Source: Tetraselmis striata (taxonomy: Eukaryota; Chlorophyta; Chlorodendrophyceae; Chlorodendrales; Chlorodendraceae). Taken from it: a stretch of 64,000 bases of DNA. The stretch covers positions 186,001 to 250,000 of the forward strand of contig VCJN01000965.1 in the NCBI GenBank assembly GCA_006384855.1, read 5' to 3'. The notes under the pieces are model-generated. The model worked only from the letters and a program-made list of their open reading frames with translations, ran no database searches and was not told the origin of the DNA. Shown piece by piece: positions 3,001 through 57,527 of this stretch (position 1 is its first letter; each line of letters starts with the position of its first letter). A program made the translations under genes and the position numbers.

Positions 3001-6000
3001 CGTCTCCAGGTGCTCGTACATGACAAAGTCGTTCCGAATCCTTTTACGATGGGAAGGAGTTTTAGGGTTTAGACCCCTAAAACCTCCACTCTAAAACCCT
3101 TCCTTCTTCTTTTGTTGAGGAACTCTATGAGTAACAGAGCAGTAATAAATGGAACCGCAGTTTAGCATCTGGTGCAGATAGGAACTGTGCGAACTCAGTT
3201 CCGTTATTATTATTCCACCCTGTACCATGCTGGATGATACCGCATCACCGCTCTCCACCCCCATATCAATCCGTTTATCAGTCGCCCCACTCCCTCTCGC
3301 GCCCAGCCCCCGTGTTGGCACCTGCTACCCCTCCCCCTGAGCCACGTCGCACCTCCTGCTCCCGCTTGTCCAGCGACGCGCTGAACGCCTCCGCCTCGCG
3401 ATGCAGCGCGCGCGCCTCCTCCTCCTTCCGCTTCACCCCCTTCTCCCGCGCCGCCAGGGCCTCCTCGCGGTCGTAGAGCTCCTCGCGGTCGCGCTCCAGC
3501 TCCTTGATGGCCTTCCGCAGCTGCCGCGGCAAAGCGCAACAACGAGTCGAGGCTGAGGCGACTAGGACCACGCGATCAGAATGAATGCCGGATCAACATC
3601 GTATCCAACCTGGGGCAGCATGCTTCCGTGTAACCCAGCGCATGGGGAGATAGGGGGGGGGGGGGGGGGGGTGAGAGAGAGAGAACAGCACACTTGTCAT
3701 GCAACTTCAGAGCATCACTGCAGCCCCATTGAGATGTCCCAGCTGCATGAGGTGCGTGTTCAAATCGAACAAATACCAATACATACATACATATAATGAT
3801 ATACATACATATACCAATACATGTACATGTGCATAAGCATGTATAGTATATGTATGTGTGTAATGGCCTTATCAGTTCCTGTCAGTGTGCTGTGATGCTT
3901 TCCTTTGCTCCTTATTGTGTGAAGGTCACCAGGACAGTATGTTTCTGCTGTTTGCGGCCTAGGGCAGGGTGATTGTGGGTCATGTGAAGGCAAGACGGAG
4001 TCGGGGGCCACCTTGTCCTGCTGCGCCTCGAGCTCCCGCTCTCGGCCCTTGAGGTGCGAGGTGGCGACGTCCAGGTAGGCGCGCTCCTCCTCGCACTTCT
4101 CCGTCTGCGTGCCACCCCATGCTCAGCCGTCTGCGCGCCGTTGCCGCTCAGCGCTGCCTGGGGCGGCATCAACGGCAAGCATGCGCGGATGTGCCGGGAG
4201 ATGTTGGCCACCTGGTGGACGAGGGCGTCCTGGGATGACTTGAGCTTGGCCTGGAAGCTGCGGAGCTCCTCCTCCTTGGACTCGAGGCTCTGCAGCGCGA
4301 AGGCGCGGTGGGTCAGGTGGCTCTACAAGGGGGGGGGGGGGGGGGGGCATGCCCTTGCGGCAGCGGTCTGTCTAATATCGTCATATGAATCCCAAGAGCG
4401 GTGTACGCTGGCTCGCTGCCCAGGGTACCCTAGGCAGTCGGGACGAGGCACTTTGCGCCCCCCCCCTCTGCAATCTTATATGTATGAGCCAAGCTGCGCC
4501 CGGGAGATCGGCAAGCGCATCGGCGTGCGGAGGCCGCAGCATGAGGAGCAGGTCAGGAGCAAAGGTAGCGGCAGCTCACCGATGCGCGGCCCTCCAGCTT
4601 CTTCTCCCGCTGCTCCACGGCGCGCACCCTCTCGCCCAGCTCCCCCTCCCCGGTGTCCACGACCTGCGCGCGCTTCTGCAGCTGCGCCTCCCAGTCCGCC
4701 AGCACCGTCTCCCGGTCCGACAGCTGCTTCTTCATGTCCGTCTTGAGCTTGGCCTGCCACCGGGTGCACGGCACGGTGTGGGTGGACAACCGGGACAAAG
4801 ATGGCATCGACGCCACGGTGGCGCGCAAGTCCATTTGGAGCCGAATCAACTTAATCACGTCGACATCAACAGTTAAGTTCCGCCTATCAACAACATCTCC
4901 GTAGTACAATTCCGTTTGGCACTTACGCCGGGGGTTAACCGCACGTTAGTAGTGGAGTGACAAATTGGACCTGAGGTAATTTCTGTCTAATTTTGCGGTT
5001 CAACGGTCATGACATCTGTATAAATGTGATGGCTTCCGAATGTGATGGCAAGAATATAAATGCTAGCATTCTAAATAGTGTTTGAATATCTCTAAAACGC
5101 CATAGCACTGCGGTGTTTAGGTGTTGAATTGAATACATGCAGGAAGCTGGGTGGGGTCCAAGCGGGCTCACCCGGTACTCGCCAATCGTCTCTTCCTGCT
5201 GCTTCACCGTCTTCATGCGTTCAGTCAGCTCCTCCCGATCGCGCCGGATGGCCTCCGCTGCCTCGCGAGAGGCGGCCACGTCCTGCTCCAGCTTGTGCCG
5301 CACCTGCCCCCGCCAATGCCACGCCGTTGTGTTAGCGCACGCCTGACCGCTGACTTGCTGCGAGCCACTCAGCCGCCGGTCCAGCTTTCTCCTTGCTATG
5401 TGCAGACCCGCAATCTCTGCGCAATATGTGCTTTGCAGTAGTGCAACTTCGGAGCGGTTTCTACTGCCGCCAACGGAGCACGACACTCGTCACTGCGACC
5501 GACAAGCCGTGAAGCGGTCTGCGCCATCACTTAATGCCCAGGTAAATCGCGCGGCGGTTCGCTCACCGCGTTGATCTCCACCTCCTTCTTGAACATGTCA
5601 TCCTTCACGCCCTTCAGCCGGATCTCCTCCGCCTCAAACTCTGCCTGCACGGGAGACATTTCGCGTTCCGAGGCTGTGAGGCCAAGGCAAGCAGCAGCGC
5701 TGTCCTCCCATAGCCCATGCCGTCAGCCGAGCGGGCGCGCAAGTGCGAGGGCGGCAGCGCGAGGGGCGGCCGCCGCCACGCACCCTCCGCTTCAGCAGCT
5801 CCGCCTGGGCATCAGCCGCCGCCTTCTCCACCTCCGCCTCCCGCCGCTGCAGCTTTGCCTCCGCCGCCTGCACCTCCCCTTGCGCCGCGTCCTTCTCCGC
5901 CGCCCACGCCTTGCGGTCCGCCTTGATGGACGCGTCCAGCACCTGCGGCACAGGGAGGGCAAAGCGCGTAAAGGCAGGGTTTCGGAAAGCGGAGCCGGGG

Positions 6001-9000
6001 GAGCGGAGCCGGACAATCGAGGCGACATTCGCCTCAGCAGCACAACTCTCTGCAGCACGGCAGCGTGATATCCTATATGTATACTTATTGTAACCTCAGG
6101 TACACATCGTGCACGTTCCCGTAGTGTATATAGACATCGTTATTGGATACAAGTAGTCATGATCGTGATTGATAGCAGGCAAGTCGTGGAGTGTGCCGTC
6201 AGTGGGTCAGATGTTACCAAAGCTACCAGTCAATGGGTGGTCAACTGCCGACGCACCCATTATAAGTCTCAAATAGGGGCTTGTTAGTATATATGCTAAC
6301 GTCCGCTATATAGTTTCGTCTTCATTTGACCTCTGGTGGGCAGGGCGGTTCGTATTCGCAGAGTTCTTATAAGTTTGCGGGCGCCCGTATTGCTGAACTT
6401 CTGAACAGCAGCTGGAGTGTCAGCTGGAATGTGCTTCTGCTAACATTGTCTGCAACACTGCATGCGCTGTCATTTATGACTTGGTGTCGTGACTATAAAG
6501 ACAGCCTTCAGAGAGTCCTACGCCGGGGTACCACAAGTCTGGAAGGTTTATGCTAGCAAAAGTGCGCTACCAGTTCAAAGGATATTTTGCAGAGGGGCGA
6601 ATCGCCCGACCACTCCGAAACCATATGTATCCAAGAACCGCCAAATATCCTATCCCATCCTATCCTATCCTATCCTATCCTATCCCATCCTATCACAACA
6701 TATCATCACAAACCATATCAAATTACAAGGTATTATATCACATCATATTAGTGTCAAGAATGCCAAATGTAAGGCGAGAATAAATTGAGGCGACGACGAC
6801 ACACGCCGCTCCGAAACCATGTGTTTATCAGTCGCTCCAAATCCGGTGGACGGTCGGTTGCAAAGAGAAACAAAGCACTGGCAGCATCCCGGGCCCCGGA
6901 TTAAACCGGTTTCGTCCGTCGCCAACCAGGCCGCCGGGAGCTCACCGCCCTCTCGCGCTCCAGGTCTGCCACCATGCCCTCGTGCTGTCGGCGCCAGGTG
7001 TCGCGCTCCTTGCTCATAGCCGTCAGGTCCGCCATCGCGTTGTCATACTCCTCCCGCAACCGCCGCACCTCCTCGCGCCCCGTCTGCGGAGCAGCGCGCT
7101 TTGCGGTGAGACGCCCCAGAGGCACAGTCACACGCATCGCCTCGCCGCTCGCTCGCAGACGGCACCCACCTGGATGGCCACCTCGGTGGTCTTCTCCGCC
7201 TCCTTGGCGCGCGACACCGCGTACTGCGCCGCCTCCACTTCCTGCAAACACGCACCGCAGTCCGCCCCCAATAAGCCCCCAATTCCACCCACCTGCGCTC
7301 GCCCACCCACCAGTGGCACCACGACACCGCATCACCCCCCCCCCACCCCCCCCCCCCCCCCGGCCCGCGCAGCGCTCGCCACCTTGTGCGTGCGGACCAG
7401 CCGGCCGTGCGCAGCAGCCTGCTCCTTCTCCACCGCGCGCAGCTCCTTGACGGCAGAGGACACGGCCGCCTCCAGCTTGCGCAGGTCGCCGAGCACCAGC
7501 TCGCGCTCGCTGTCCACCCGCGCGGCGTCCTTCTTCTTCAACTGCGCGCGAGGGAGCGGACGGCATGCCGGCCGTCAGTGGCTCGGCAATACCCCCCAGA
7601 GCCCCCGAACCTCACAAGATCATGCCCCGATCATACTCGAGGCACAGCACAGCATGCCGCGCCAAAGGGAAGGGAGCGGCGCACCTCCTCGATGCGCTGC
7701 ACCTCCGCCGCGACAGCGCGCTCCTGCTCCTTGACAGCCGCCTCGTGCGCCGACGCCTCCTCCTCCGCGCGCTGCCGCTGCTCCTCCAGCTCACGGCGCT
7801 GCCGCTGCAGCCGCGCGCTCTCCTCCTGCAGCGCCAGTCCCTCAGCCAACTGCCCCATCCCATCCAGCAATGAACTCCAGCAGCCTCTTGGCATGCGCGG
7901 GAAGGGGGGGGGGGGGGGGGGGGGTGCCTTGTGTCCCTTGATGGCGGCGTCTGCCTCGGCACGCGCGCTCTGCAGCGCCGCCTCACGCATCTGCTGTGCG
8001 GCTTTACCCTCCGCCAGTGCCTGCTCGCGCCTCAGCAGGTCCTTGTCCTGCAGGCAGGGAAAGGACAAGGAGGAGATCGGGGGGGGGGGGGGGGGGGTAA
8101 GATGGCCTGATGACCACGGAAGATGAGACATGCACAGAGAGACTAGGAGGAGCATGAGGAAGAGGGGGAGCAAGATGACGGTGATATGGATGATGACGGT
8201 GGTGATGACGGCGATGGCGGTGATGATGGAGGGATGATAATGGGGGTGGGCGGCATGGTGATGCTGGTGGTGGTGATGCTGGTGGTGGTGACGGCGATGA
8301 TATATGATGGAGGGATGATAATGGTGTGGGCGGCATGGTGATGGTGGAGATGGGGTTGGTGGTGATGATGCCGATGGTGGCGGGCGGCATGGTGATGCTG
8401 GTGGTGACGATGGCGATGATATGATGGAGGGATGATAATGGTGTGGGCGGCATGGTGATACTGGTGGTGGTGATGCTAGTGGTGACGATGGCGATGATAT
8501 GATGGAGGGATGATAATGGTGTGGGCGGCATGGTGATGCTGGTGGTGGTGATGGCAATGATGATTGAGGGATGATAATGATGTGGGCGGCATGGTGATGG
8601 TGGAGATGGGGTTGGTGGTGATGGTAACGATGATGGCGATGATGGTGAGCGGCATGGTGATGGGGATGGTGGTGGCAATGGTGAGCATGATGAGGAAAGT
8701 ACTGCAACCACGCTGTGGCTTCCCTAAATACCATCATTGCTGACCCCTTCGCAAGGACGGCATACCCCCCTGGATCCGTATCATCAGAATAAGCAAGCTG
8801 CAGGCAAATCTCGATTTGGTACCGCCGAGGTTCGGGACGCCTAAACCCGATTTAATCGTACAATACGGAGGAAACCCTTTGCTGCCCGGAGCACGAGAAC
8901 TGCAACGCTGCCGCCCTCCCCTTTCAAGCTGGGCCTGAGCCCTTCCCGCTTTCCGCCCCCGTCCACTTGGCCCCGGGAAGGGCAGCTGCTTTTCGCATCA

Positions 9001-10424
9001 GCGGGGCACATGCGCCGGGACACGGCGCGCACCAGCTGCTCAAACTGGGCGGCTCGCTGCTCCAGGTCCCGCACGCGCTGCTCGCGCTCCGCCAGCTCCC
9101 GCTCCTTGACCTCGCACCGCTGCGCGCCGCCCTCCAGCTGCCCCTCCCGGCTCGCCACCTCGCCGGCGCGCGCGTCTATCTTCTTCGCGCGCTCCTCCAG
9201 GCTCTCTGTCAGGCGCTGCAGCGCGGCCCGCTCGCGCTCGATGGACTCCTGCGCCGCCTGCCGCCAGAAGCGCCAGCCCACCCCGGCCCCGGAATCAGCC
9301 CCCCAACAACGGCGCGCCTCCCGCTACTGCGGCGCCGCCAATGCCGGCATCACCTCGCCCTGCGCCCGTGCCGCCACACCGTGCCCTCCGCTTGCTTGGC
9401 TGCCCTGGCGAGCATGCCCCGATGCAATCCCCTCCCGGCCCAGTCGGACTTCTCACCGCAGCGTCTGCCTCTGGTCTGCACCTGCGCGTTGCCTGCTGAC
9501 TACTGTCTTATGCCTGTAGGGACTGCATCTGCGAGTGGGGACCCCCCCCCCCCCCCCTGCGCGCGAGCGCCCCGCCGGTTGCACTGCCACCCACGTGTCG
9601 GCCTAGGTGCGCCCCACCTTGCGCGTGGCCTCCAGGCTCTGCTTCACAGCCTGGCGCTCCGCGTCCAGCGCCTCGCGCGCCATTGCTCGCTCCCGCTCCA
9701 GCTGCTCCGCCTCCTCCTTGCGGGCGCTGCGGGGCGCGAGGGTAGGGCCGTGGACGGGGGAGGTCAGGCAGCGCGGGGCCCGCGGGCAGGGGATTGACTT
9801 CTCGGGCAGTTGACACAGCCGCGGGCCGAGGCGGGTCGGCAGGAGCGCCACCACTCACCGCTCGAGGCTCCTGAGCTGCCCTTTGGCGCGGTCCAGCTCG
9901 CGCCCCAGCGTGTCCAGCTCCGCCCGCGCAGCAGCCGTGGCCGCCATTGCGCCTTCGCTGTCCCGCTCCAGGCTGTCTCGCTGAGGAGAGGGACGGGGCA
10001 TGCATACGGGGCGGGGAGCATGAGCGGCTGCCTGACCCCACACCGCCACGCCGCAGCACCGGGTCATGCCTAGACGGGGAGGAAGAGGGACAAAGGGAGG
10101 GGAGGGGGGGGGGGGGGGACAACCTCCGCGCGAAGCTTGGCTGCCTCGCCACGCAGTCCCTCCACCTCGCTGATGTACTGCAACTTGGAGTCATCCACCT
10201 TGTGGGTACGGATCACGGCACGCAGGATCGGCAAGCTGCTCCTTGAAGATTGCCCGGGGCGGTTGGGGAGAAGTGCCGGAGGGGCGGTTGGGGAGAAGGG
10301 GGGGGGGGGGGGGACAATGACTCCGGGCGGCTCACCTCCTTATAGAAGTTGGCCGAGACTGCTGAGAAGTTGAAGTCCTGACATAGAGGGTGGAGAGCGG
10401 CGGGTAAACATTAAAGGGTAGAGG

Positions 10425-10459
<35 letters not shown>

Positions 10460-13025: not shown

Positions 13026-14121
13026 ATGGCCATCACCGGCTTTGTAGGGAAGCAGCTGTACCGTTGGGCCTCCTGGCTGGTGGAGAGAATATACAACGTG
13101 GCCCTGCTCCTCAGGCTGTTCTTCCTGCTGCTGGACAGCAACAGGTCGGCGACGCAGCAGTCAACAGCGGCAGGCCGGATCGAGGATGAGCAACGCGTCG
13201 CGAGCGGCACGGCGTGGGCCGAGTTCTGCGACTCTCTTAAAGCCGCCGGCGAGGTGGTCCTGCGGCGACGCGGCGGTGGGCTGCTGGCCACGACGGCGCT
13301 GGACCAGGCGGAAGGCTACCGCTACCTATCGCGCCTGGTGCGGGGAGGCCTCGAGGGGTTCATGGAGAACAGCCTGCCATCGCATCCTCGCCTTCGCCCG
13401 GCCTTGCCCTACAACGTGAAGATGGGCGCCGACAACCCCGACAACTTGTACCTGGTTCGGCCCATCTCCGCCAACTTACCCCCCCCCCCCCCCCCCCCCC
13501 CCCCGCAATCCGATCGAAAAAACCCGACCCAAACTCCGTCCCCAGCTCTGAAAATGCGCCCCAGCCCGGGCGTTTCGCCACCTTGTGATGGGCGTTACTC
13601 CTCAGCAGCATATCTCGAGCCTTGCGCTTATGTTAATCTTCCCCAATAAGAAACTTCCCACCTCGCCACACAAGTGATGCCATCCACTCGATTACCTTCG
13701 CAGACAGCGCCCATTGACGGCAGGGAAACGTATCGGATCTGGGGTAGGCGGGGAACCATCCACTACCTGGGCTTTGGTGCCTACGCTGGCAATCACCCAG
13801 GTGACACCCCCTCCCCAATGGGATGGACCTCATGGACGGATCAGCAGCACACCTCGCGGCACAGCTGATAGCATATCTCACGCGCCCGGCGCGGACACCG
13901 ACGAGCAGGGAGAGGCAAGCCCGAGCCGACCTACCTGGATGCTGCGGACCTCGCATTGGAGGAGGACGGCAGCTTTGAGCTTGTCCTGAGCCCAGTGCCG
14001 CACGGCGGCAACTGGATGCCTCTGGAGAGAGACATCGAGCGCTTGCTCGTGCGCATCCTCCGCGCAAACTTAGTTTTCTGAATTACCTTTTCCGCTTGCT
14101 TCATTCCGCGCTGCATTGAAG

Positions 14122-41240: not shown

Positions 41241-41539
41241 ACCTCGCGGGATACAGCAGGAGGGCACCCGTACGACCGCGCTGCTTTGGCTTGGCGGCAT
41301 GCGGGTGAGTGGGCGGCATGCGGCCTCAAGCGCCTCCAACTCCAGCGGGTCCTTGCCCTGCTGCTGAGCGACAGACACCGCGACCGCTGGGGTTAAGAGA
41401 CCTTCGAGACCACCTCGTAAGCACTTCACCGGTGGGTGGCTGAGCTCGCGGGTATTGCTGGTGCCCCCCCCCCCCCCCCCCCCTCTTGGATACCTGGCGA
41501 GCCCTGGCAGTAATAGCGGCAGCAGGAAAAGCCGACAGC

Positions 41540-43891
41540 ATGGAAGCGCTGGGCGTGGACCCCGCCGTGCTGGCGAACATGGGTGCCTCCGGCAAGGGTA
41601 GCCTCCGCATCCACAGCACCCCGCCGAGCAGCAAGTACAAGCCGGTGGACTACCCGCCGAATATCGTGATGGCGCGGGCCGCCTCCCCGCCGAACCCGAC
41701 CCTGCCGCGCAAGCCCAACAAGGGCATCCGCACCAGCAAGGCGCTCAGCGAGACCTTGAAAGGTGCGCGCCATTCGGCTCAGTACGTATCATCATACATA
41801 TTGCCTCTGCAATCAGAACCCTGTCACCCCAGTGACGCTTGGTTGAGGGAGTGAGAGAGGGGGAAGTAGGGAGGGGGGTCGATACATGGTAGGTGTCACA
41901 TTGGCTGTGCAAATAGAGCCTCAATCATTCTGTCAGCACTGCACCAGGAGTTTGAGCCTGGCCTGATTGGTACCAGGCTCGCCGCTGCGTAGAGGAGAGT
42001 GCGCGTAAGCCTGACTAAGGCGCACGGCTTTCTCTCTGGCAGGCCGCGCGGGCAAATATGGCGAGCTGATTGGCAAGAACGGCGGCCACTACTGTGGGGA
42101 GATCTTGGCGGGGCGGCCGCATGGCAATGGCCAGTACTTTGTCCCAGCTGGTCCCTCCGCGCGGAACTACAGGTGGGCAGCCAGCGCCATCTGCCGCCCA
42201 TCTCTGCCACGCCAAACCCCTCTTGTCCCATTCCCCTCAGCAGTGCCGGGCCCTGACACATATGCATTTCCCGCCAGGCTTCAATACGACGGAGAGTGGA
42301 TCCAGGGGCGCCGGGAAGGGCATGGCATCCGATACTACCACACCAGTCCGCAACCCTCTCTCACTCTATCGCCTGCGTGCTGCACTGCCCACATCTGCTC
42401 CACCCCTGCGCCCACAGGATGACCCTCACGCCCACTGATGCTGAAATCTGATTGCTGCGGGCTCACAGATGAGGTATACACCGGCGACTTTGTAAACAAT
42501 GAGCGGCATGGTTACGGTCGCATGGACTACCGAAACGGCGACAGTTACGAGGGCCAATGGATGTCTGGCCACAAGCGAGGCCTTGGCACCCACTACTACG
42601 CGGTCAGCAACCCTCACCCCTCCCCCCCCCCCCGCCAAACCCCCTCCTTTCCCCTCGCCTTTTATCTGTGGGTACCCCATGATCAGCCCTGCGAACATCC
42701 TGCCTGCGCTGGTCAGGCTTCATGCGGCATCCTTGTCCTGAGACGCGCGCCCCTGCCTTGCTGTGCCGCAGAATGGCGACTTCTTTGTCGGGTATTTCAT
42801 GAATGACAACAAGGAGGGGCTGGGCACGCTCTACATGGTGCAGAAGGTGGGCGCCCCAACGCGCTGTCAACCCCTTCCTGAGACCGGCAACCCCGCCACC
42901 CCCTCTGATCTAAGCGGCGTCACATGTTGCGAGACGGGACGGGGTTGCGCTAAATGCCGAGGCCGTCTCGCTGGCCGGCAGGGGAAGAAGATGGTGGGGG
43001 AGTGGGTATCTGACAAGTGCGCCACCTCGAGCATCATGTTCATCGAGGAGGGCGAGCTCAGCCCGCTTGACGACAACCTGGTGGAGACCATTGAGATGAG
43101 GTGCGCTGCCTGGACTCCCCCCCTCCAGGGGTCCCTGGCCTAGTTGTTCTGGCAGCTGCTCCGGAATGCGCACGAGGCAACTATACTCAGCCTTCCCTCT
43201 GTGGTGCACCTGCAGCATGCCGGAGAGCGGGCCGGACATGGAGCGCCGCGAATTCCCTGCGCTGGACCTGAAGCAGCCCAACAAGCTGCTGGCCCGGCAG
43301 TTCGCTGGCATCCGCAAGATGCGCGAGGCAGACATCAGGGTGGGCATGACCCCCCCCCCCCCCCCCCCCCCCCCACCCCTCTCTCCCCCTGTTGTTTCGG
43401 TAGTCAACTGCTTTTGCAGCAACATGCATTATGGACAGTGCATCAGCATTGCCGTATCAGCCAGAAGGGGTCCAGCAGGGAGCAGGCAATCCTTCCTCTC
43501 TTACGTTGTCATTTACCGGCGTTTTCTGGGGATGATCGAGCCTGGTCCCTGACAATGCTCTTGTCGGCCTGCCGAATGACAGAGCCAGCGCGAGGCGCAG
43601 CAGCAGAGCGGCACGCTGGGCTACGCGGACGTGGAGATGCTGCGCTTGTCATTCATCCTCATGGCGGGCGGCGACGAGGTAGAGATGGGCGTGCTCACGC
43701 ACCAGCTGCGCGAGCTCTGCGTCATGGCGGGTCTGGACCCTGCACAGGAGCGCACGCCCGAGCTGGTCGCCGATCTTGTTCGCCAGAAGCGCGGCAACGG
43801 CCGTATCCACCTCGACGACTTCCTGAAAATCGTGGCACACTATCGCAACCACTCCACCGCGGAGGTGGCCATCCCGGACGAGTGGTTCTAG
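41540..43891 (+). CDS. MORN-repeat protein with EF-hand-like C-terminus, eight exons
   Basis: Coding exons are 41540-41762, 42043-42172, 42278-42345, 42469-42602, 42772-42846, 42982-43100, 43216-43339 and 43589-43891. All junctions are GT-AG and phase-compatible, giving 391 residues. After a Pro/Lys-rich N-terminus come about six MORN-type units (for example YDGEWIQGRREGHGIRYY, VYTGDFVNNERHGYGRMDY, SYEGQWMSGHKRGLGTHYY, FFVGYFMNDNKEGLGTLYM). The C-terminal 100 residues are helical and resemble a degenerate EF-hand pair (LVRQKRGNGRIHLDDFLKIV), though the loop lacks a full set of Ca ligands. MORN proteins commonly link membranes or radial-spoke/axonemal complexes, so a flagellar or basal-body role is plausible but inferred. 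The upstream C run at 41466-41483 and acceptor CCTGGCAG suggest a 5' leader intron. Confidence 0.9.
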
Positions 43892-43912: not shown

Positions 43913-44685
43913 CCCTGAGCTTGCGCCCTGCCCGGGCGTATGACTGTAGTAATGAGAGACACACAACAGGCCTCATGTGGCGCCGCTGAGCCACATGCTG
44001 GCATGAGCTGCTGCGCGTTGTCTCCAGGGAAGGAAAACAACTGGGGTAACTGAAGTTTCACTGGGGACCTGTAGGACAGTCTACAAAGAACCACATCAGT
44101 AAAGCAAGCCAGAAAGGGGGGGGGGGGGGGGGGAGGGGAGAAGTACGCGAATTGGCTGAGGGCAAGGGGAGGGGATTGGGTGAGCCCAGTACCCAGACAG
44201 GCGCCATGGGAGGAACAAGCTGGCCTGTGACTGGTTGGTGAAGTGGCGTACGTGATGATAGTAATGCAATGCTTTATTGGGATGGCATGGCGCGCCCCGA
44301 CTTGGCGCTCCGCCTCAGCCCTGAGCTTGCGCCCTGCCCTAGCGTACGACTGTATTAATGAGAGACACACAACAGGCCTCATGTGGCGCCGCTGAGAAGG
44401 AAAATAACCGGGGTAATAAAAGCTTCACTGGGGACCTGTACTTGGACAGTCTACAAAGAATCACATCAGTAAAGCAAGCGAGAAAGGGGGGGGGGGAGGG
44501 GAGAAGTACGCGAATTGGCTGAGGGCAAGGGGAGGGGATTGGTTGAGCCCAGTACCCAGACAGGCGCCATGGGAGGAACAAGCTGGACTGTGACTGGTTG
44601 GTTAAGTGGCGTACGTGATGATAGTAATGCAATGCTCTATTGGGATGGCGTGGCGCGCCCCGGCTTGGCGCTCCGCCTGGGCCCT
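43913..44685. repeat. 406-bp tandem duplication downstream of the MORN gene
   Basis: Unit 1 (43913-44318) and unit 2 (from 44319) both start CCCTGAGCTTGCGCCCTGCC. Both carry the same GAGAGACACACAACAGGCC block, a G run (17 nt in unit 1, 12 nt in unit 2), and end at GGCGCGCCCCG/CTTGGCGCTCCGCC. Unit 2 is shorter mainly through small deletions. A (CCTG)n stretch follows at 44683-44702. No gene is supported in the array. Confidence 0.85.
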
Positions 44686-46157: not shown

Positions 46158-46541
46158 TCAGCAGGCACTAACGCCCTCGGCGTCAGTGCTCGCCGCCGCA
46201 TGCTTGGGCATGCTCAGCTTCAGCTCTCCCTCTTGGGTCATCTTCGCAGTGATATTCGACTCGTTGACGACGGGTGGAAGAGGCATAGCCCGCTGGTATG
46301 GGACCTGCTTCTGCCCAGCATCTGCTTGTTCACCGGTCTGCTCCGCGACTACGGTCTGCTCCCCTACAATGGTGAGGATGCGGTCCTGAGTCAGGCCGAG
46401 CTTGACGTTGGAGATGGCGTTATCTTTCATATCGCCGGAAATCTCTACAGAGTTCTTCGTGTCCTCCACTTTGAACTCGGAGGCAACCACAGGCGGGTTG
46501 ACGTCCACATTGAAGACAGTAGGAGTAGTAGAGGCCGCCAT
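46158..46541 (-). CDS. Small heat-shock protein (HSP20 / alpha-crystallin domain)
   Basis: A single uninterrupted frame of 127 codons starts MAASTTPTVFNVDVNPP. The order of elements matches the alpha-crystallin domain. The N-terminal strand is NVDVNPPVVASEFKVED with NSVEISGD after it. The domain end is QRAMPLPPVVNESNITAKM followed by the characteristic GELKLSMPKHA. The protein is short for the family and has little N-terminal arm. Such proteins act as ATP-independent holdases that bind unfolding proteins as oligomers. The C-terminal I-x-I oligomerisation motif is not seen. It stands alone in AT-rich DNA, and the absence of introns contrasts with the other genes here, so retroposition or recent transfer is possible. 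Confidence 0.8.
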   Translation of the reverse strand: MAASTTPTVFNVDVNPPVVASEFKVEDTKNSVEISGDMKDNAISNVKLGLTQDRILTIVGEQTVVAEQTGEQADAGQKQVPYQRAMPLPPVVNESNITAKMTQEGELKLSMPKHAAASTDAEGVSAC

Positions 46542-47419
46542 GGTCTACAAATTAAGTATACAGTGGGTTAAGAAATAGTTGGTATTCTGTGAGGGGCCAA
46601 TAATATTGTCAGGCTGATTTTATAGTCGCTGCCTTTTTTCTCGCCCGGTGCAATCTTACTGCTGCTACTCCTAGAGTGTGCTTCGGTCGATGCTCCGCTA
46701 GTTGAGGTGAAAAGAGGCTTGCTGTTATTTTGCCGGCAGGCAGTATGCCGGCAGCGCTACCAGTACGGGTAGATGCTCGTACAGGGTAGCTACCAGGTAC
46801 CAGTAGCTTAGAGGGTCGTACGGTCGTCACTTTATGGGGATATACAGGTAGTCGTCATACCGAAGTTCTACGGGTACGAGGCTACCAGTATTTATAGCCA
46901 GCCATCCAGCTATAGCTACTATCATCTACTATATTTTTAAATATTAAACACGATATCTGCGCCGTGTCGTACTCGTACTCGTACATGTACTGGTACTGAT
47001 GTGATCGGCGTATGTGATGATGTACCGGGTGCGCGGTGTGGTGGCGAGGGCTCCTATGGCTGGATGTATAATATACCCAGGCGGCCAGGCCAGATACACA
47101 GGTATATGAATATACGTGCATAGTAGTACAACAAGCAGGCTTTGCGTAGTAGTTGTCTGCAACATCCCATACAGGCATGCATATAACACATGATGAAGAT
47201 ACTAGTACGTTATTGCGTTTTATCACCGATAAATGCAAGCAGGCCGTCCCGTGCTGCGTCATCGACTCGACAACTAGTCGACCACTCGTCATCATCACGT
47301 ATTTAGTGGATGAAGTGAAAATATACGGTACGGTAGGGTACAGTGACGGTACCGGTACCTCTACTACGGGTACCTGTACCAGGAAATCCATACCTTTAAT
47401 CCTGATTAATGGTCGCTAC

Positions 47420-56827: not shown

Positions 56828-57527
56828 CTTGCACTTTGCGCGTACTGCTGGGTTACATCCAGGCGGTGTCACACTATGCAGCCGGAAAGGCTGCGTTGCT
56901 ACTGCAAACGATGCTACGCCTCACTCGGTAGCAACCGCTGCCCCGCCTATCCCACAGCCGCTGCCCCCCCCCCCCCCCCCCCCCCGCGGGATCCCCGCCA
57001 TCAACAGCTTGCACTTGCACTTTGCGCGTACTGCTGGGTTACATCCAGGCGGTGTCACACTATGCAACCGGAAAGGCTGCGTTGCTACTGCAAACGATGC
57101 TACGCCTCACTCGGTAGCAACCGCTGCCCCGCCTATCCCACAGCCGCTGCCCCCCCCCCCCCCCCCCCTCACGCACCGTCCTGCGACCTCGCGTGGATCC
57201 CCGCCACCAGCAGCTTGCACTTGCACTTTGCGCGTACTGCTGGGTTACATCCAGGCGGCGTCACACTATGCAACCGGAAAGGCTGCGTTGCTACTGCAAA
57301 CGATGCGACGCCTCACTCTGTAGCAACCGCTGCCGCGCCTATCCCACAGCCGCTGCCCCCCCCCCCCCCCCCCCGCGGGATCCCCGCCATCAGCAGCTTG
57401 CACTTGCACTTTGCGCGTACTGCTAGGTTACATCCAGGCGGCGTCACACCGGAAAGGCTGCGTTGCTACTGCAAACGATGCTACGCCTCACTCGGTAGCA
57501 ACCGCTGCCCCGCCCATCCCACTTGCG
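56828..57527. repeat. Four tandem ~185-bp units, three with a C run
   Basis: Units begin at about 56828, 57014, 57220 and 57403 (spacing 186, 206 and 183). Each starts CTTGCACTTTGCGCGTACTG and includes GGAAAGGCTGCGTTGCTACTG. The first three end in a C run of about 18-20 nt followed by GGATCCCCGCCA (unit 2 has a 20-bp insertion). Each unit also contains a GT donor-like CTCGGTAGC (CTCTGTAGC in one) and an acceptor-like CAACAG or CAGCAG. The whole looks like a duplicated exon-intron module. Confidence 0.85.

Follow-up and report, generated by a model that had tools for sequence, protein, structure and literature searches.

The window analysed here is a stretch of 64,000 nucleotides (nt) from Tetraselmis striata (contig VCJN01000965.1; G000:C763:186001-250000), belonging to a genome assembly of 224,097,584 bases in 2903 contigs. 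It contains a coiled-coil gene on the minus strand and, on the plus strand, a DUF1214 gene and a MORN gene, in and around which there are long homopolymer tracts of C or G. A preliminary description of this DNA had proposed that such intronic runs are C on the sense strand. The observation is confirmed here, and it also holds outside the window, in independent loci and beside donor motifs genome-wide. The strand bias rises with the length of the run, the runs cluster just past 5' splice sites, and their lengths differ between near-identical copies.

Genes and tracts of the window

Seven exons of the MORN gene join in a single frame up to a stop, and the assignment of this gene is supported by Pfam (PF02493, E 1.2e-17). 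The support for the DUF1214 gene is marginal (PF06742, E 1.8e-5, with a score of 25.6 bits where the cut-off is 25). A search with 173 amino acids of the coiled-coil gene gave no match in Pfam or PDB, and most of the splice sites of this gene were read by eye.

Runs of 8 nt or more in the window, which is 57% G+C, comprise 21 of C, 23 of G, 2 of A and 1 of T. In the coiled-coil gene, between positions 3653 and 10456, there are nine tracts of G or C of at least 10 nt, where the runs at 7335-7344 and 7346-7361, separated by one A, were scored as a single tract. Seven of the nine, 15-31 nt long, are G on the plus strand and two are C, as had been described; a further C run of 9 nt at 4458-4466 (sense G) falls just below the 10-nt threshold. 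The four runs attributed to the DUF1214 and MORN genes are indeed all C on the plus strand. However, the one at 41464 precedes the first joined MORN exon and can count only as putatively intronic. The features are collected in Table 1. The probability of such a sense-C excess by chance is 0.18 for 7 of 9 tracts and 0.022 for 11 of 13, so that the window alone is weak evidence.

Table 1. Homopolymer tracts and tract-bearing introns of the window, with run lengths in nucleotides
Position	Strand	Feature	Remark
3653..3671	-	Sense-C19, mid-intron, coiled-coil gene	Intron by eye
4329..4347	-	Sense-C19, followed after 6 nt by possible acceptor TTGTAG|AGCC	Acceptor by eye
7335..7361	-	Sense-G tract of 16 + 10 (T between), exception, about 20 nt past donor-like AAG|GTGGCG	Donor by eye
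7850..7927	-	78-nt GC-AG intron; sense-C21 (7904-7924) from donor +4	Flanking exons both in phase
8079..8097	-	Sense-C19, ending 31 nt upstream of acceptor-like CTGCAG|GACAAG	Acceptor by eye
9542..9557	-	Sense-G16, second exception to the sense-C rule	
10104..10118	-	Sense-C15 at +6 of donor GAG|GTTGT	Donor by eye
10298..10313	-	Sense-C16 at about +23 of donor GAG|GTGAGC	Donor by eye
10426..10456	-	Sense-C31, about 50 nt upstream of acceptor-like CAG|GACTTC	Acceptor by eye
13455..13703	+	DUF1214-gene intron; C26 (13479-13504) at donor +25	Flanking exons in phase; PF06742
41464..41483	+	C20 upstream of joined MORN exons	Intronic status not shown
42603..42771	+	MORN-gene intron; C12 (42622-42633) at donor +20	Seven exons, one frame
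43340..43582	+	MORN-gene intron; C25 (43350-43374) at donor +11	Seven exons, one frame

Some other runs of the window lie in repeated sequence. At 56930-57374, the C runs at 56964, 57150 and 57356 are each preceded by a nearly identical sequence of 35 nt, which gives a tandem unit of about 190-205 nt. At 44100-44500, the G runs at 44116 (18 nt) and 44486 (11 nt) are found within a duplicated stretch and form a local pair showing a change in length. The window also contains a gene for a small heat-shock protein at 46158-46544 on the minus strand (PF00011, E 2e-8).

Strand orientation and run length in independent loci

Loci of known strand elsewhere in the genome were located by protein homology, from exons matching the Pfam models for kinesin (PF00225; best 150 of 164 matches) and for the P-type E1-E2 ATPase (PF00122; best 54 of 57 matches); the matches to chaperonin (44 of 44) were used for coordinates only. 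Among solved structures the best match of one of the kinesins is kinesin-2. The anchored set consists of 53 merged stretches around these exons, 187 kilobases (kb) in all, from which near-identical copies were then removed. A run at most 1.5 kb from a mapped exon was assigned the strand of that gene, and some of these runs may be extragenic. Seven contigs with intronless ATPase genes, which contain no run of 10 nt or more, were excluded from the length, exon-end and 206-kb local counts. On contigs C1010, C1539, C1694 and C2348 the intronless ATPase genes look bacterial by eye, and the assembly may include bacterial contigs.

The anchored stretches contain 86 runs of at least 10 nt, 68 of sense C and 18 of sense G, which reduce to 55 and 13, respectively, after removal of the copies (p 2.7e-7). 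Twenty loci lean to C, three to G and one is tied; at 21 of the 24 loci C also forms the longest run. Three further kinesin introns, picked by length with their sequence unseen, contain four sense-C runs of this size and no sense-G run. The orientation of neighbouring tracts, compared at the first 100 places, agrees in 24/31 cases at less than 5 kb, in 16/20 at 5-20 kb and in 7/19 beyond, a pattern such as gene strands would give. Within the window itself neighbouring tracts have no clear agreement (9/12, 7/14 and 5/11, by distance).

The excess of C depends on the length of the run. With the mapped exons masked, the ratio of sense C to sense G in the anchored loci is 983:981 for runs of 3 nt, 334:236 for 4 nt, 98:62 for 5 nt, 47:30 for 6-7 nt, 13:5 for 8-9 nt, 14:5 for 10-14 nt, 15:4 for 15-19 nt and 26:4 for 20 nt or more. 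The share of C thus rises from 50% to 87% (trend z 5.8, or 3.7 without the 3-nt runs). The number of runs declines to 8-9 nt and then climbs at 20 nt or more, forming a second mode. Only one A run and one T run reach 10 nt in these loci. A general GC skew of the sense strand is ruled out by its base totals, which are equal (C 30995, G 30233).

It is important to consider whether the composition of short runs alone might produce this pattern. Introns, mostly near donors, would be richer in short C runs, which slippage would enlarge with neither filter nor function. In the mapped gaps between exons, runs of 4-5 nt already number 46 of C to 23 of G (35 to 17 for 4 nt), and runs of 4-9 nt within 60 nt of 29 exon ends number 17 of C to 5 of G. 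This seed bias of about 2:1 may account for part of the sense-C effect, perhaps for much of it. However, the share of C keeps climbing up to the longest class, sense-strand C and G are equal overall, and the C:G ratio differs between runs of 4-7 nt and those of 10 nt or more (p 4e-4, with the caveat that exons left unmasked may have diluted the shorter classes). As a complete explanation, seed composition is in our opinion unlikely.

The abundance of the tracts is very high. Windows of C15 or G15 number 638,538 genome-wide against 2,064 of T15 or A15, a difference of about 309-fold, and from the window count and the local mean length we estimate 86,000 tracts of 15 nt or more. As in Caenorhabditis, long G:C homopolymers therefore occur far beyond chance. 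In near-identical contig pairs the positions and the base of the tracts are common but the lengths differ, for example 18/28, 18/26, 24/32, 28/34 and 21/23/12. The presence of a tract is not always kept; in the pair C332/C2788, one copy of a tract has 16 C where its counterpart has 5. The pairs C2426/C2456, C332/C2788, C476/C1576, C24/C735, C2594/C1110 and C1216/C277 are 97-99% identical over the compared stretches and are probably uncollapsed haplotypes; they are useful for measuring the mutation of the tracts.

The length of homopolymers is error-prone in sequencing, and on this general ground one might suspect that the method inserted or stretched them during base calling or assembly. However, the near-identical contigs have tracts at the same places while differing in their length, which argues that the tracts are hypermutable and not artefacts, and an error of base calling would not track gene strand or splice donors. 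An artefact is highly improbable. A small polarity of the tracts is present genome-wide (C12TC4 7166, C4TC12 6062). In local sequence, C runs are flanked by pyrimidine-rich DNA on their 3' side but not on their 5' side; this polarity is not significant in the window alone.

Position relative to splice sites

The positions of runs within introns were assessed from the ends of mapped exons, which are the ends of profile matches, so that the distances carry some error. The test comprised 13 sense-C runs in 10 gaps, or 16 runs in 12 gaps after two gaps were added. In the gaps of C1134 and C1880 and in the second gap of C2410, 24-42 model positions are missing and a further small exon may be located there. 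A sense-C run starts at most 40 nt from the exon end in 10 of the 12 gaps, where 1.4 are expected, and 10 of the 16 run starts lie within this distance (5% expected, p 9e-10). The corresponding values for the ten-gap subset are 9 of 10 gaps and 9 of 13 run starts (p 2e-8). The clustering of runs near donors that the preliminary description had pointed out is thus present in other genes.

The composition of the same region is also asymmetric. The first 40 nt past 29 exon ends contain 475 C, 279 G, 203 A and 203 T, and in the first 60 nt the long runs number eight for C and none for G. For 30 exon starts the corresponding upstream counts are 378 C and 374 G, and the adjoining 60 nt contain a single long run, of C. 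Polypyrimidine tracts of acceptors, which lie between branch point and acceptor, can be rejected as the main explanation on the basis of this comparison, one long C run against eight. The nearness of runs to acceptors, which the preliminary description had also pointed out, finds no support as a feature with strand bias. The genome-wide counts beside acceptor motifs, 300 for sense C (reversed control 90) and 370 for sense G (control 149), are confounded, since exon ends of the type CCTGCAG|GT would equally match CCTGCAG with C12 behind it.

Donor motifs were counted genome-wide without annotation, each motif once and on the plus strand; the counts in which the run comes first were set aside since they count each run many times. 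The motif CAGGTRMG is followed by C12 within 25 nt in 511 cases (78 for the reversed motif) and by G12 in 158 cases (reversed 49), where local densities predict about 178. For AAGGTGMG the corresponding values are 183 (reversed 11) for C12 and 94 (reversed 40) for G12. With the reversed motif as control, p is 9e-4 and 5e-9, respectively, by the Fisher test. In 206 kb of local sequence there are 51 occurrences of CAGGTRMG, none with C12 or G12 within 25 nt; AGGT is followed by C10 and G10 in 19 and 14 cases, and GGTGMG in 12 and 2.

A tract just past donors with a preferred strand is what a 5'-splice-site element would look like. The C tract might be a cis signal, bound for example by a KH-domain poly-C-binding protein that assists in defining weak 5' splice sites, and selection would then keep the sense orientation. 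The frequency of gaps with a run close to the exon end and the excess of C12 over G12 behind both donor motifs agree with such a role. Donors adjacent to runs also look weaker: G is kept at +5 in 10 of 18 of them and in 16 of 18 run-free donors, all picked by eye (p 0.06). The tract has either invaded these donors or compensates for them, and weak donors may just be invaded ones. However, the length of the tract is free to vary among near-identical copies, many mapped donors have no run at all, and a bias is also found away from donors: when the runs close to mapped exon ends and those following donor-like motifs are set aside, 26 of C and 9 of G remain (p 0.006). A splicing element appears somewhat unlikely to us.

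A bolder version of this proposal, which we regard as distinctly doubtful, is that poly-C past the 5' splice site may serve genome-wide in this lineage as an intron-definition element. It would replace part of the consensus at donors as simple as GTCCCC, GTACCC or GCACCC and recruit a poly-C-binding factor, and its hypermutability would turn each such intron into a tunable switch of splicing, different from allele to allele.

Possible origin of the bias and comparison with known systems

The explanation that we favour, tentatively and with slightly more doubt than confidence, combines growth by slippage with strand-dependent filtering, which would act against G in the RNA and in the non-template strand. 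Hypermutable G:C homopolymer tracts would grow by slippage out of short C or G runs, and in genes they would be sorted by the direction of transcription. Where G is in the RNA and the non-template strand, the tract may be lost or held short through R-loops, quadruplexes of RNA or DNA, or interference with RNA processing. Where G is on the template strand and C in the RNA, the tract could persist and lengthen. Accumulation just past the 5' splice site might reflect the fact that introns are there already richer in short C than in short G runs, and that beyond the donor little sequence would be required, unlike in the branch-point and acceptor region. The most tolerant part of the intron would be the sequence that follows the donor.

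The strand filter is suggested by the excess of sense C in the anchored loci and in the further kinesin introns, by the share of C that rises with length despite equal overall C and G, by the bias that persists away from donor-like sites, by the differences in length between copies at shared places, and by an orientation bias of the same sense in C. elegans, described below. G-rich non-template strands reportedly block transcription through R-loops, according to Belotserkovskii and colleagues. Among the causes named in the preliminary description, a bias linked to the transcribed strand fits both the dependence on length and the runs away from donors, while a splicing signal fits the clustering at donors; slowing of the polymerase by a G-rich template would predict loss of sense-C tracts, not their survival.

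Several points weigh against the strand filter. The de-duplicated anchored set includes 13 sense-G runs, up to 25 nt long. The seed bias is already present in the short runs of the mapped gaps, and the step from their 46:23 to 59:13 for long runs has only p 0.053, so that a filter may be unnecessary. Transcription alone does not predict the clustering at donors. In addition, in the available part of one in vitro study, quadruplexes on the template strand block transcription and those on the non-template strand raise it (PMC7341879), and a review states that template-strand quadruplexes can impede the polymerase (PMC9921937).

The approximately 86,000 tracts, oriented by gene in the tested loci and variable between copies, would constitute a natural experiment on transcription direction and repeat growth, a question usually studied at few loci, and make it possible to test how transcription or splicing influences the growth of repeats. 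Should the clustering at donors be functional, it would represent a splicing signal of an unusual kind; otherwise it still indicates where introns tolerate unstable DNA. In such genomes the tracts would also give gene finders a cue to strand and donor.

It is useful to compare these tracts with those of other organisms. Human first introns are said, by Eddy and Maizels, to be G-rich at their 5' ends with G on the non-template strand. The asymmetric, G:C-rich sequence near the intron start is similar here, but the G is on the template strand. Word searches of the open-licence literature found no report of runs of this kind in an alga, and none of clustering at donors or of such a density. The strand rule has a precedent in C. 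elegans, while the clustering and the density are without one in the literature found, as far as the accessible parts of these papers extend.

In the accessible part of the Caenorhabditis study (PMC2211496), G:C tracts are over-represented in introns and between genes and nearly absent from exons, a distribution like the present one. The 100-Mb genome of C. elegans has 396 poly-G/poly-C tracts of 18 nt or more. The intragenic G tracts are on the non-coding strand in 84 cases and on the coding strand in 47, the same preference as the 55 sense-C to 13 sense-G runs found here, and its authors likewise suspect that trouble with transcription is behind the orientation bias. However, their location within introns is unbiased, whereas here 10 of 16 starts lie within 40 nt of an exon end. 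The density also differs, with about 86,000 tracts of 15 nt or more per 224 Mb in the present genome, and the tested C. elegans tracts are conserved in length between two strains, while the lengths vary here among near-identical copies. Maintenance by a DOG-1/FANCJ-like helicase is a further characteristic of tracts of the Caenorhabditis type.

In Chlamydomonas and Volvox, the density of tandem repeats is highest in introns and is raised near exon-intron junctions. The abundant intron motifs are GT/AC dinucleotides, and stranded mononucleotide C is not described in the available portion of that paper (PMC3887541). The introns of Daphnia, in the section available, favour T-rich motifs on the sense strand (PMC3152781). 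They resemble those of the present genome in having stranded mononucleotide runs, with sense T in the place of sense C.

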